From Lachnospiraceae bacterium JLR.KK002 (GTDB lineage Bacteria > Bacillota > Clostridia > Lachnospirales > Lachnospiraceae), in NCBI GenBank assembly GCA_036941025.1, contig JAYMNP010000001.1:1178001-1242000 (forward strand): 64,000 nt of DNA, in the 5' to 3' direction. Positions 48,411-64,000 of this stretch are shown here, in pieces (within the stretch, counting starts at the first letter, position 1; every line of letters begins with the position of its first letter). The notes beneath the pieces were generated by a model. The model saw only the letters and a program-made list of their open reading frames with translations, had not been told where the DNA came from and did not search any database. The position numbers were made by a program, and so were the translations under genes.

Positions 48411-48635
48411 ATGAGTCATAAATCATGCTGTTGTCATTGCTGTCCGAAGAACGAATCCAATCTACAGCCAGCTTATTTTAATGCTGTCATGCAGGGAGGT
48501 TACCAGGAGATTGCTCCGGAGGAAAATGTTAATTTTTTACTGGCTTTTCAATCCGGTGACTTTTCCTTCACCCCAAACACAGCAGAAATTATAGTCCACA
48601 CAGAAGGTATTTACCGAATAGATTATAGTTTACTA
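48411..48635 (+). pseudogene. BclA/TNF-like jelly-roll protein, 5' part, cut by an IS630 array
   Basis: 75 codons from ATG 48411 (AGGAGG ten bases upstream) end exactly at CTA of a CTAG. The N-terminus is Cys-rich (MSHKSCCCHCCPKN); GIYRIDYSLL is like the start of the BclA C-terminal jelly-roll. The 3' part resumes at 52570. Rejoining the two gives an uninterrupted 163-residue protein. Such proteins are often spore-surface or exosporium proteins; here only the fold type is inferred. The short ORF that runs into the IS ends after one more codon and is not a real product. Confidence 0.88.
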
Positions 48636-49906
48636 GTATAGCGAATATTAAATTGTTGATAGTTTAAATAGTTGCTGCTTCATCGGGATTAATTTCATCC
48701 ATTTTATATGTCCAATGATAAACGATTGGATCGGCATTGATCTCATCGAAGTAGCGGTATATCCGCTCCGACAGTTCCTCCTTTGAATTGACGCGGATGC
48801 CTTTTAACATCTGCTTTGTCATTTTGCTGAAAAAGCTTTCAATCATATTCAGCCATGAAGTGTGTGTCGGGGTAAATACAAACAAAAAACGGCCTTCGGG
48901 TAACGTTGCAAGAAACTGTTGGGTTTCCTTTGAAGTATGGGCTGAGTGGTTGTCCAGTATCAGCCGTATTGTGTCACCCTCCGGGTATTTTACATCAAGA
49001 ATCTTTAGAAACTCGATAAAATCAGAACTTTTGTGTGTCTGGCTGACCAATGGAATTGCCTCCCCTGTCAAAAGGTCAATACCTGCAGGCAGTGACAGCG
49101 TCCCAAGCCGCACATACTCATAATCCCGGCGGACATAACCTTTTTCCTCTGTCGGGGTATGGTCGGGATATTTGTTGGCAACAGCCTGGATGCCGGGTTT
49201 TTCATCATATGAAACAGTATGTGTCAAATGCCCGTTTTCCGGTATGATGATATTCCCATCAATGCCAAACTGCATCTCGACCTGCTTATAGACCAGGAGG
49301 ACGTCATGCATCTTATTCTCAAAATCAGGGTCTTTCCGTTCAAGATAATACTTGATCCTGAATGGTTTTATATCCATCTTTTTGAGATATTTTTGGAGCC
49401 ATGGTTTGGTAACTGTCTTTAAGCGTGGATAGCCGGCTTCTTCAGCATATGCCTGTATATGTCTGTGCAACGCAGCCAGTGTCCATAATTCTGCAGCATA
49501 GCCAGGGTCACAGGGTTTTTGGCAGGCTATACTGACAATCCATGCTTTTGCATCGTCAGTAATCTCAACTGGTCTGCCGGAACGCTCGTCATCAAATATG
49601 GCAAGGTTAATTCCATTGTTAAGATAACGGTCAATACAGCGCCGGACGGTATTCACACTAATGCCCAGGCCGTCTGCGATAGCCTTGTCTGTCCTGGCTT
49701 CGGATTTCCATAGCAATATTCGGGCACGGTCAACAACCTGCGCCTGGATAGTTCTGGCTTTTATCAATGATTTTAGGTAATCACGTTCTTCATCTGATAT
49801 TGTAATGCTATAAGATAACGCTGGCATAATCAGCCTCCATAAATTATATTTATTAAGTCTATTATACCAGATACCGAAACTATCAACAACTTAATTTATG
49901 ATATAC
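48636..49906 (-). mobile_element. IS630-family element A (1271 bp)
   Basis: Bounded by TA at 48634-48635 and 49907-49908. Ends are imperfect 30-base inverted repeats: GTATAGCGAATATTAAA against GTATATCATAAATTAAG, then an exact TTGTTGATAGTTT. One transposase gene inside. A second copy in the opposite orientation begins at 63738. The end carries a promoter (TTGTTG, 17 bases, TATAAT) that reads into the transposase. Confidence 0.93.
48664..49827 (-). CDS. IS630-family transposase of element A, intact
   Basis: 387 residues in one frame. N-terminal helix-turn-helix (TDKAIADGLGISVNTVRRCI) and a DDE catalytic domain with Asp in VSYDEKPG, Asp in LILDNHSAHTSK and Glu in HTSWLNMIESFF. Complete, hence probably active. 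Unlike the two neighbouring elements, it needs no frameshift. Confidence 0.95.
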   Translation of the reverse strand: MPALSYSITISDEERDYLKSLIKARTIQAQVVDRARILLWKSEARTDKAIADGLGISVNTVRRCIDRYLNNGINLAIFDDERSGRPVEITDDAKAWIVSIACQKPCDPGYAAELWTLAALHRHIQAYAEEAGYPRLKTVTKPWLQKYLKKMDIKPFRIKYYLERKDPDFENKMHDVLLVYKQVEMQFGIDGNIIIPENGHLTHTVSYDEKPGIQAVANKYPDHTPTEEKGYVRRDYEYVRLGTLSLPAGIDLLTGEAIPLVSQTHKSSDFIEFLKILDVKYPEGDTIRLILDNHSAHTSKETQQFLATLPEGRFLFVFTPTHTSWLNMIESFFSKMTKQMLKGIRVNSKEELSERIYRYFDEINADPIVYHWTYKMDEINPDEAATI

Positions 49907-49950
49907 TAGTACAGCGTTTTTTTGATGCTCATATACTATCAAGGCTGTTT

Positions 49951-50619
49951 TTAACCAGCATATTTCCAGTTAAATGCTTTGGCTGTTAAATTGTATTGTT
50001 TAATAAAATTAAGGATGCTTTGAGCCATTTCCTCTACGGATTTATAGCTGCCTTTTTTCAAAAGCTTCCGATTGATGATACCAAACCAGATTTCTATCTG
50101 GTTCACCCAGGAACTGTGCTTCGGCGTATATACAAAACGAATCCTGTGGCTTTCATCCATAAGGAAAGTTTCCCTGCTTTTCATGCTCTCCAGTATGCCT
50201 TTCTTTCCCTTAATACCAGGATCAACCGTAATGGAACATTTCTGTGCAACCAACTTTACAAGTCCTTCGGATTTATGGGTATTAAGACCATCACAGATAA
50301 TGATATAGTTTTTATCTGCATCCTCTGATATAAGCTGCCCCACAGCATTGCAGAAATCTTCCTCATTTCGTGTGCTGTTCAGATACGGTGACTGGATCCT
50401 GCCATCTGCAACACGCAGGAATGTGATCAGACTTATAGTGCCATGACGGATGTATTCAAACTCATGCAGCGCCGGGCTGCCCGGGCGTACCGGCTTGTCC
50501 GGATATTTGCGCTCCAATGCCTGGATCCCGGTCATTTCATCCGTGGAATATACTTCCGTACCGCATTCAGCAAGTTCCGAAGCCTGAAGATAGATGCCGC
50601 AGATTGTTTCAATTTTTTT
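49951..50619 (-). CDS. Element B transposase, second frame (DDE domain)
   Basis: About 222 residues from the frame junction. DDE residues: Asp in YSTDEMTG, Asp in IIICDGLNTHKSE, Glu in SSWVNQIEIWFG. There is no own ribosome binding site in the right place. It joins the first frame at a run of eight A (minus strand, 50620-50613) if one A is skipped or lost in the RNA, which would give a product of about 410 residues. Fusion is inferred. Confidence 0.85.
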   Translation of the reverse strand, partial: KKIETICGIYLQASELAECGTEVYSTDEMTGIQALERKYPDKPVRPGSPALHEFEYIRHGTISLITFLRVADGRIQSPYLNSTRNEEDFCNAVGQLISEDADKNYIIICDGLNTHKSEGLVKLVAQKCSITVDPGIKGKKGILESMKSRETFLMDESHRIRFVYTPKHSSWVNQIEIWFGIINRKLLKKGSYKSVEEMAQSILNFIKQYNLTAKAFNWKYAG

Positions 50620-51190
50620 TAAAGGATTCCGGGTTATCGTGCCTTTCCGGGGAGTTGAGCCAGTAACGGTTTTTCCATGGTGCGATACCCGCAAATTTAA
50701 GGAACCTCTGTACACTTGCGACAGAAATGGATCCCACGATACCCTGCCTGACAGCTTCTTTCGCAAGGGATGCAAGATTCCAGCAGCTCAGCTCACAGCC
50801 AAAGTCTTTTGGGTTTTTACACGCCAGTTCATTGATGAGCATGATCTGTTCCGGGGTGAATACAGGCTCTTTTCCGGGTCTTTGTTTATCTGAAAGCACA
50901 GACTTTATGACATCAGACAGCTTTTTATCACCATCCGGTCCGTCATACTCCTCCGTCTGGGCAATAAGGTCTATGTTGTTATAAAAACGATTCCGCCATA
51001 TGCTGACAGTCGAATAGGTGGTTCCAAGCGCTTCTGCGATCTGGGTATTGTTTTTCTCCTCCGCGGCCATCAATATAATTTTGGATCGGGTCACAATACA
51101 TGATGGCAGGGAATAGCTGGTGCTGAAATTTTTTAATATTGTTTCTGCCTTATCAGACAAAGTAAAAGAAGCAGCTTGAAAACCACGCAT
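50609..51190 (-). CDS. Element B transposase, first frame (DNA-binding part)
   Basis: 193 residues from ATG 51190 (GGAGG upstream). Helix-turn-helix region includes TQIAEALGTTYSTVSIWRNR. It ends right after the A8 run (PESFKKN, stop). Taken alone it lacks the DDE residues and would bind DNA only, a possible transposition inhibitor. Confidence 0.85.
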   Translation of the reverse strand: MRGFQAASFTLSDKAETILKNFSTSYSLPSCIVTRSKIILMAAEEKNNTQIAEALGTTYSTVSIWRNRFYNNIDLIAQTEEYDGPDGDKKLSDVIKSVLSDKQRPGKEPVFTPEQIMLINELACKNPKDFGCELSCWNLASLAKEAVRQGIVGSISVASVQRFLKFAGIAPWKNRYWLNSPERHDNPESFKKN

Positions 51191-51379
51191 AATATTCCCT
51201 CCAATTTGAACCAATTCCTGTTAAGATATTATTGCATATTTTATAAAAAAATGGAAGAAAAAAGCATATGGTTATCAAAGAAACATTGTACTAGTGTACT
51301 GACCTGTTGATATTTAATCAAATAATTCTGGTAACCACAGCTGTTTTGATATATAATAAAAGAAACGGCGGTGATTCCT

Positions 51380-51889
51380 ATGGCAAGACCTAAAAAGTAT
51401 AATATCCATCTCACAGAAGAAGAATTTAGAAAGTTGAAATCTGTTATCCGTAAGAAGGAAACTTCAAAAACTATCCGCAGCAGATGCCAGGTTATTCTTG
51501 ATCTGGACGAGGCGCATGGAAAAGTTTTAACTCATGAACAAAGCGCAAAGTCCAATGGTGTCTGTATGGCAACCGTCACCAATACTGTGACGAAATACAT
51601 CAATGGCGGCATTGACGCAGTTACTGAATTTAAAAGGAACATAAATTCAGATAATGCAAGGCGCAAGGTTGACGGGCGTACAGAGGCCCGGCTGATTGAA
51701 CTTGCCTGCGGCCCCGTTCCAGAAGGGCACTCCCGGTGGACAATCCGTCTGCTTGAGGAAAAATCCAAAGTGGTTCTGGAAACCCCTGTGGGCAGGGAGG
51801 CAATCCGCAATGCCCTAAAAAAAACAAACTTCGACCTCACAAAAACGACTACTGGTGCATCCCGTCAAAAGAAGACCCGGAATTCATAG
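51380..51889 (+). CDS. Element C transposase, first frame (DNA-binding part)
   Basis: 169 residues from ATG 51380. MARPKKYNIHLTEEEF and EQSAKSNGVCMATVTNTVTK form the DNA-binding part. At 51817-51824 there is a run of eight A reading CTA AAA AAA ACA, a canonical A-AAA-AAA slippery heptamer. After it the frame runs on to a stop as a non-conserved tail (DLTKTTTGASRQKKTRNS). Confidence 0.88.
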   Translation: MARPKKYNIHLTEEEFRKLKSVIRKKETSKTIRSRCQVILDLDEAHGKVLTHEQSAKSNGVCMATVTNTVTKYINGGIDAVTEFKRNINSDNARRKVDGRTEARLIELACGPVPEGHSRWTIRLLEEKSKVVLETPVGREAIRNALKKTNFDLTKTTTGASRQKKTRNS

Positions 51890-52527
51890 CCTGCATGGAG
51901 GATATCCCTGATGTTTACGAACGCCCCTATGATGAAAATCGTCCGGTTGTGTGTATGGACGAAAAACCATATCAGCTTTTGGGAGAGTCCAGGGAGCCTT
52001 TGCCAATGATTCCCGGAAGTGACCGGAAAACCGATTCGGAATATGTCCGCAATGGTACGGTCAGCATCTTTGCCTTCGTGGAACCGCTCGGAGGGATGCA
52101 CCATGTGAGTGTCCGGGAACACCGTACAGCCGTCGACTGGGCAGAGGAAATCAGGTATCTGGTGGACATCATGTACCCTGATGCCGAGAAGATCGTCCTT
52201 GTGATGGATAATCTGAACACACATAAAGCAGCTTCCCTGTACAAACGGTATCCGCCTGAAGAAGCAAGACGCATCATAAAAAAATTGGAGATACATTATA
52301 CGCCAAAGCATGGGAGCTGGCTGGACATTGCAGAAATAGAGCTTAATGTAATGACCAGGCAATGTCTCAGCCGCCGCATCGCTGAAACAGGACTGTTACG
52401 CAAAGAACTGTCCGCATGGGAAACGGAGCGGAATACAGTGGCGGCAAAGGTCAACTGGCAGTTCCGGACTACTGATGCCAGAATAAAGCTCAGTTCCTTA
52501 TACCCTGTATTTACTTCTGCCTCTTGA
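51817..52527 (+). CDS. Element C transposase, second frame (DDE domain)
   Basis: Read in the -1 frame from the A8 run, it gives KNKLRPHKNDYWCIPSKEDP and then EFIACMEDIPDVYERPY, the normal continuation of such transposases. DDE: Asp in VCMDEKPYQL, Asp in LVMDNLNTHKA, Glu in GSWLDIAEIELN. The fused product would be about 380 residues. The ATG at 51895 is unlikely to be an independent start. Confidence 0.88.
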   Translation, partial: KKNKLRPHKNDYWCIPSKEDPEFIACMEDIPDVYERPYDENRPVVCMDEKPYQLLGESREPLPMIPGSDRKTDSEYVRNGTVSIFAFVEPLGGMHHVSVREHRTAVDWAEEIRYLVDIMYPDAEKIVLVMDNLNTHKAASLYKRYPPEEARRIIKKLEIHYTPKHGSWLDIAEIELNVMTRQCLSRRIAETGLLRKELSAWETERNTVAAKVNWQFRTTDARIKLSSLYPVFTSAS

Positions 52528-52569
52528 TGAGGTGGTAGTAATGCTAAATATCAACAGGTCAGTACACTA

Positions 52570-52836
52570 GTCCGCCCCACCGCCGGACTGTTGAATATTG
52601 CTTATGCGGTGGCAGTCAATGGCCTGGAAAATCCCTTATCATTTTTCGGAACTTATTCAGATGAACTTGCAAATACGGTACGCACAGAACTAACTGGCAT
52701 GTTTATTACCTCTATTCCTGCCGGAGCAACTGTGACACTGCGCAATAAGTCCTCTACTATTGATTATCTGGCAGGAACAGGCATTGACAATCAGGCTGAC
52801 AATCATGCCTCCATTTTACTCCAGAGGATTGCCTGA
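52570..52836 (+). pseudogene. BclA/TNF-like jelly-roll protein, 3' part
   Basis: 88 codons and a stop, starting with the G of the original CTAG. VRPTAGLLNIAYAVAVNG continues directly from the 5' part, then SIPAGATVTLRNKSST and a hydrophobic ending LLQRIA, as in BclA C-terminal domains. Apart from the IS array the gene has no other damage. Confidence 0.88.
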
Positions 52837-63720: not shown

Positions 63721-63737
63721 GGATGTATCTGCTACTA

Positions 63738-64000
63738 GTATATCATAAATTAAGTTGTTGATAGTTTCGGTATCTGGTATAATAGACTTAATAAATATAA
63801 TTTATGGAGGCTGATTATGCCAGCGTTATCTTATAGCATTACAATATCAGATGAAGAACGTGATTACCTAAAATCATTGATAAAAGCCAGAACTATCCAG
63901 GCGCAGGTTGTTGACCGTGCCCGAATATTGCTATGGAAATCCGAAGCCAGGACAGACAAGGCTATCGCAGACGGCCTGGGCATTAGTGTGAATACCGTCC
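63738..64000 (+). mobile_element. Second copy of IS630 element A (runs off the window)
   Basis: Starts right after TA 63736-63737 in an ACTAG. By eye the visible 263 bases match the end of element A (49906-49644, reversed) without difference. Orientation is opposite to the first copy. Confidence 0.93.
63817..64000 (+). CDS. IS630-family transposase, N-terminal part (3' end outside window)
   Basis: From ATG 63817, preceded by GGAGG; 61 residues identical to the start of the element A transposase (MPALSYSITISDEERDYLKS...). Cut by the window edge. Confidence 0.93.
   Translation, partial: MPALSYSITISDEERDYLKSLIKARTIQAQVVDRARILLWKSEARTDKAIADGLGISVNTV

Follow-up and report, generated by a model that had tools for sequence, protein, structure and literature searches.

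The 64,000-nucleotide stretch analysed here (the window; Lachnospiraceae bacterium JLR.KK002, GCA_036941025.1, contig JAYMNP010000001.1, positions 1,178,001 to 1,242,000) carries three different insertion sequences, called A, B and C below, stacked inside one small gene. The array at 48633-52570 reads left flank-CTAG-A-CTAG-B-CTAG-C-CTAG-right flank, with zero extra DNA between the parts and with A, B and C on the minus, minus and plus strands (Table 1). Our best explanation, which we hold as a whole to be very probable, is that a 4-base-pair (bp) duplication at a scarce target, CTAG, multiplies the targets and gives stacks of different elements. Under it, the insertion sequences A, B and C, with their IS630-type DDE transposases, would be recently active and would duplicate the whole 4-mer, so that CTAG is renewed at both borders. 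A preliminary description of this DNA had reported three distinct insertion sequences head to tail with CTAG at each junction, and coordinates and copy comparison confirm it. It had also taken the array not to be simple amplification; indeed the three are not mutual copies, and A has a single-frame transposase and B and C each a two-frame one. The second copy of A that it placed in a CTAG near the window end has that CTAG at 63735 and, in the wider genomic locus, is complete with CTAG at both borders. It had further drawn the elements as starting with G and ending with C around a duplicated TA, and this part does not hold.

Copies of the elements throughout the genome (G000) were located by a DDE_3 search. 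There are 17 in total (eight of A, five of B and four of C), and copies of one type share at least 99.8% identity. TA is central in both border 4-mers of all 17. Fifteen stand between two CTAGs; the other two, L001 (type A) and L005 (type C), are flanked by ATAG at either end. Copies between two CTAGs are uninformative on the length of the duplication because 2 bp and 4 bp look alike there. Were only TA duplicated, by elements with terminal G and C, insertion at ATAG would leave one ATAG border and one CTAG border. The same 4-mer at both sides of the non-CTAG copies thus points to a duplication of 4 bp and not of TA.

Relatives of A in other genomes behave in the same way. We used the best 80 of 372 loci with a relative of the A transposase in GTDB genomes, mostly named Lachnospiraceae. 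They contain 81 elements, nine of which had a border cut off or unreadable and were left out of the border count (L043, L049, L056, L060, L063, L076, L087, L091 and L093), leaving 72 resolved. CTAG stands on both sides in 54 of these, and another 4-mer, identical on both sides, in ten (GTAG three, CTAA three, CTAC three and ATAG one). The border search demanded a central TA and a T..A core form, not identity of the two 4-mers; TA is kept on both sides in 66 of the 72, in a search that itself favoured TA. In a tree used solely to see their spread, the non-CTAG duplications are scattered over several A-like branches, the branches of B, C and the reference element ISEc33 being very long. Borders were readable in six of eight loci with B relatives and in 12 of 23 distinct loci with C relatives from other genomes and viral contigs, the latter contributing few loci (6, 3, 5 and 3), and all 18 have CTAG on both sides. 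The base just outside CTAG is A in 43 of 86 flanks from 43 foreign A loci, a mild preference for ACTAGT.

The same reading of borders does detect a 2-bp duplication. As a yardstick we took seven copies of ISEc33 from E. coli and an Enterobacter plasmid (L155, L196-L201), whose transposase gene has 88% DNA identity to one annotated as IS630 itself. Six of them read C-TA-element-TA-G, that is, a CTAG target with TA duplicated, leaving CTAA and TTAG as borders; for the seventh, L200, no left end could be located. Both ISEc33 and the present elements combine an IS630-type DDE transposase with a preference for TA within CTAG. In ISEc33, however, TA alone is duplicated and the CTAG is destroyed without renewal of the site, whereas A, B and C renew it.

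Empty sites agree with the 4-bp reading. In G331, a genome labelled as the same species, the site of L001 is empty and holds a single ATAG. In five other genomes of the genus, relatives of the gene that contains the window array are uninterrupted at this place, and the window flanks match these five codon for codon when exactly one CTAG is kept; the relatives themselves lack CTAG at that position. The ATAG copy of A at L001 (G000:C1, about 696 kb) interrupts an open reading frame (ORF) whose left piece resembles a phage tail sheath slightly below the Pfam cut-off, and this site may lie in a prophage or phage-tail-like cluster.

All three elements have terminal inverted repeats, with arms of 27-36 nt and 78-100% identity. 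In A the arms are 35 nt long (86%) and include CTAG and a few bases beyond, and in C the inversion is perfect across 27 nt, CTAG included. The terminal G and C are better left out of the elements. DDE_3 is above cut-off in A, B and C. The IS630 family model NF033545 (cut-off 100) gave 205.4 bits for A, 127.4 for C ORF2 and 96.7 for B ORF2, the last slightly below cut-off because B was scanned as two pieces with its frames unjoined. As TA-only duplication of 2 bp is not what the borders show, we file A, B and C as an IS630-related lineage duplicating 4 bp and not as typical members of the family. The transposases of B (49951-51214) and C (51371-52527) lie in two overlapping or adjoining frames by a run of A, and their relatives likewise align as two separate pieces. 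By analogy with ISHsp2, for which it is published, this suggests programmed frameshifting.

CTAG is rare in this genome. Its frequency was estimated from 400 kb of evenly spaced samples, in which it occurs 22 times. This is 0.16 of the number expected from shorter words, a ratio below that of every other 4-mer, and suggests a genome-wide total of about 210 native CTAGs. The next lowest ratio is that of GATC (399 seen and 1403 expected in the 400 kb), followed by that of CGCG. Only six CTAGs occur in the whole 64-kb window, and five of them are borders of A, B or C. With CTAG the most under-represented 4-mer, element borders would make up a notable share of the targets.

Besides the window array, the genome has two further A-B stacks, at 128 kb (A minus, B minus) and at 777 kb (A plus, B plus). 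The 13 occupied sites thus comprise three stacks and ten single insertions, with four junctions. All four junctions join different types, too few to judge whether like avoids like. Abutting related transposases were found in none of the 80 foreign A loci, whose flanks extended no further than 3 kb and in many cases stopped at a contig end. In L054 a second relative of A begins 1.36 kb further on. At L190, in another genus, a C-type end meets an A-like end across a CTAG, with no A transposase in the 4 kb there.

All three stacks differ between G000 and G331. At the window site G331 reads left flank-CTAG-A, with A plus, and A-CTAG-right flank; its contigs break inside A, where we infer a single copy, against A minus, B minus and C plus in G000. 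At 128 kb G331 reads left flank-CTAG-B (minus) and G000 left flank-CTAG-A-CTAG-B. Most simply, A would have arrived later, in the CTAG bordering B; the right flank of this site has no match in G331. At 777 kb B lies minus against the right flank in G331 versus A plus and B plus in G000, the left flank having a poor match. The resident element thus has opposite orientation in the two genomes at two sites, A at the window site and B at 777 kb, which indicates that the same CTAG was used again or that the element turned around in situ, and not plain inheritance. Ends of A occur at three contig ends of G331 and ends of B at three, and C was absent among the matches listed. Two further A or B sites, on G331 contigs C16 and C33, are without counterpart among the G000 loci compared. 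Within the searches made, the sites that carry elements in both genomes are the three stacks of G000 and no others.

We propose the following course of events. A, B and C would insert at the palindrome CTAG, or occasionally at a one-base variant (NTAG or CTAN), probably by strand transfer with a 4-bp stagger. All four target bases would be duplicated, turning one CTAG into two, one per border, independent of the end bases of the element. The preliminary description had both borders reading CTAG again after insertion, as is seen, but the cause would be the 4-bp duplication and not terminal G and C. CTAG would be so rare that the borders of resident elements form a notable share of the targets, and those borders would be places where an insertion had already been tolerated. 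Later insertions would hit them again and build stacks of different elements, and further attraction to occupied sites would not be needed.

Several observations weigh against this explanation. A central TA was a condition of the border search, and borders were placed by eye in 16 loci and in the second L054 copy. The two border 4-mers are unequal in eight of the 72 foreign A relatives. Six of these have lost TA on one side, probably through decay; in L048 the right 4-mer is ACTC, or CTCA (one base on) by eye, unlike the left one either way. L081 (CTAC/CTAG) and L106 (TTAG/CTAG) keep TA and match the pattern of a TA-only duplication. The duplication length rests on the 12 non-CTAG copies, 11 of type A and one of type C with none of type B. 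If G331 had lost A, the order of insertions suggested at 128 kb would look the same. Stacking also exceeds what uniform choice among CTAGs predicts: for 15 insertions, simulation gave 0.93 junctions expected versus four seen, with at least four in about 1% of runs (P about 0.01). The excess shrinks with 106 usable CTAGs (P 0.07) and disappears if about a quarter are usable (53; 3.1 junctions expected, P 0.38). Native CTAGs are not concentrated in genes: ORFs of 100 aa or more span 85% of the sampled bases and contain 17 of the 22 sampled CTAGs. Of the 13 occupied sites, seven fall within such an ORF, two of them at its very edge, and the difference from the 17 of 22 is suggestive only.

An excess of stacking beyond the scarcity of usable CTAGs is thus suggestive. 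Active attraction of the transposases to resident IS630-like ends, or re-insertion of an excised element, would account for it, and for both the reversed residents and the coincidence of shared occupied sites with stacks. We consider such an added process rather unlikely: four junctions are ordinary with about 50 usable CTAGs, the foreign A loci have no abutting relative, and the breaks of G331 contigs inside elements leave room for more complex arrays there. For CTAG-poor genomes we offer, tentatively and as a conjecture that may well fail, that this lineage keeps few permanent docking sites, where occupied CTAGs are preferentially re-used by further elements and by the resident re-entering reversed, with content, order and orientation differing between strains. 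Serial stacking as put forward in the preliminary description therefore stands as to its existence, at three loci and with a less-stacked state in the sister genome, but not as an excess beyond CTAG scarcity. Its call for other junctions between insertion sequences was answered by the two additional stacks of this genome and not by the foreign A loci.

It is very improbable that TA alone is duplicated between elements beginning with G and ending with C, as first described. This is the established behaviour of ISY100, for which a 2-bp stagger and TA duplication were demonstrated in vitro (PMC2170065), and it fits all CTAG/CTAG copies equally well and L081 and L106 besides. It needs, however, 12 separate terminal-base changes (in L001, L005 and ten foreign loci), every one of which happens to agree with the target base at the opposite border. 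Moreover, the ATAG/ATAG copies have CTAG/CTAG siblings in the same genome, and L112 (CTAC/CTAC) likewise has same-genome siblings L098, L101, L103, L105 and L107 with CTAG/CTAG. We give as little credence to stacks moved or copied as a composite A-B transposon. A does adjoin B at all three stacks, but both are minus at two and plus at one, B lies directly at the flank in G331 at 128 kb, and the variants differ between stacks (DDE_3 scores A 78.5/B 74.9, A 78.5/B 73.7 and A 81.8/B 73.7). Repeats of 99.8-100% identity are prone to misassembly, yet an assembly artefact seems the least probable of all, with three stacks having different flanks in one 4.2-Mb contig and with outer flanks and borders recurring in G331 on both sides of the window site, on the left at 128 kb and on the right at 777 kb.

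The preference for CTAG, which the preliminary description gave as inference, is already published. It is the subject of the title of Tenzen and Ohtsubo 1991 on IS630, cited in PMC2170065, and is also stated in PMC6811581. The 15 of 17 copies in this genome bear it out, and so do the borders read in other genomes, where most resolved A relatives lie between CTAGs. ISY100 and Tc1/mariner elements belong to the same superfamily and have TA at the target centre, and the 2-bp TA duplication of ISY100 contrasts with 4 bp here. A precedent is ISHsp2 of Halomonas sp. ZM3, an IS630-family element with 4-bp direct repeats instead of TA (PMC3606827). Its repeat, from a trap plasmid, is TTAA, and its authors term it a distinct member. 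Compared by description only, ISHsp2 shares with our elements a 4-bp direct repeat with central TA and, with B and C, a transposase in two frames with a run of A. It differs in its TTAA repeat, whereas here CTAG is favoured and the behaviour occurs in many Lachnospiraceae elements. MITEPsy1 of Pseudomonas syringae duplicates CTAG or YTAA as a 4-mer (PMC3189936) but its authors connect it with ISPsy2, an IS5-family element, and not with IS630. A 4-bp CTAG duplication or serial stacking in the IS630 family did not turn up among the titles, abstract openings and passages covered by searches of open-licence literature. The kind of element is thus already known, and the 4-bp CTAG variant with site renewal appears to be new.

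Annotation of IS630-like elements as TA-duplicating can mask a 4-bp duplication at CTAG, since a shared CTAG can be parsed just as well as TA with a G and a C that belong to the element ends. Duplication of TA consumes a CTAG, whereas a 4-bp duplication multiplies it and produces stacks, re-used sites and wrongly placed element ends. The effect may be wide, because CTAG borders on both sides also occur in six elements of other groups.

Table 1. Features of the array and of the second A copy (window coordinates; element cores exclude CTAG).
Feature	Position	Strand	Remark
Interrupted small gene, 5' part; listed ORF stops inside the border of A	48411..48641	+	no Pfam match
CTAG, left border of array	48633..48636	.	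same left flank and CTAG in same-species G331
Element A core, 1269 bp	48637..49905	-	imperfect terminal inverted repeats
Transposase of A, 387 aa, one frame	48664..49827	-	DDE_3 (PF13358) and NF033545 above cut-off
CTAG common to A and B	49906..49909	.	
Element B core, 1381 bp	49910..51290	-	5 copies in genome
B ORF2, DDE_3 part	49951..50775	-	NF033545 96.7 bits, slightly below cut-off 100
B ORF1, helix-turn-helix part; overlaps ORF2, run of A in overlap	50609..51214	-	
CTAG common to B and C	51291..51294	.	
Element C core, 1272 bp	51295..52566	+	4 copies in genome
C ORF1, helix-turn-helix part; A8 run close to its end	51371..51889	+	
C ORF2, DDE_3 part	51895..52527	+	NF033545 127.4 bits, above cut-off
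CTAG, right border of array	52567..52570	.	same CTAG and right flank in G331
Interrupted small gene, 3' part	52591..52836	+	no Pfam match
Second A copy: left CTAG and element start	63735..64000	+	continues past window end

The six elements of other groups are L202-L206 and L221, the last from a viral contig. L203-L206 lie on plasmids of Pseudomonas, Rhizobium, Sinorhizobium and Streptomyces and are IS630-family elements with 28-30% identity (51% for L202), from other phyla; they too are perhaps 4-bp duplications. At L151:1481-1535, in another genome (G282), two CTAGs enclose a palindrome of about 46 bp whose ends resemble those of C; this mini-element may be a tiny non-autonomous derivative.

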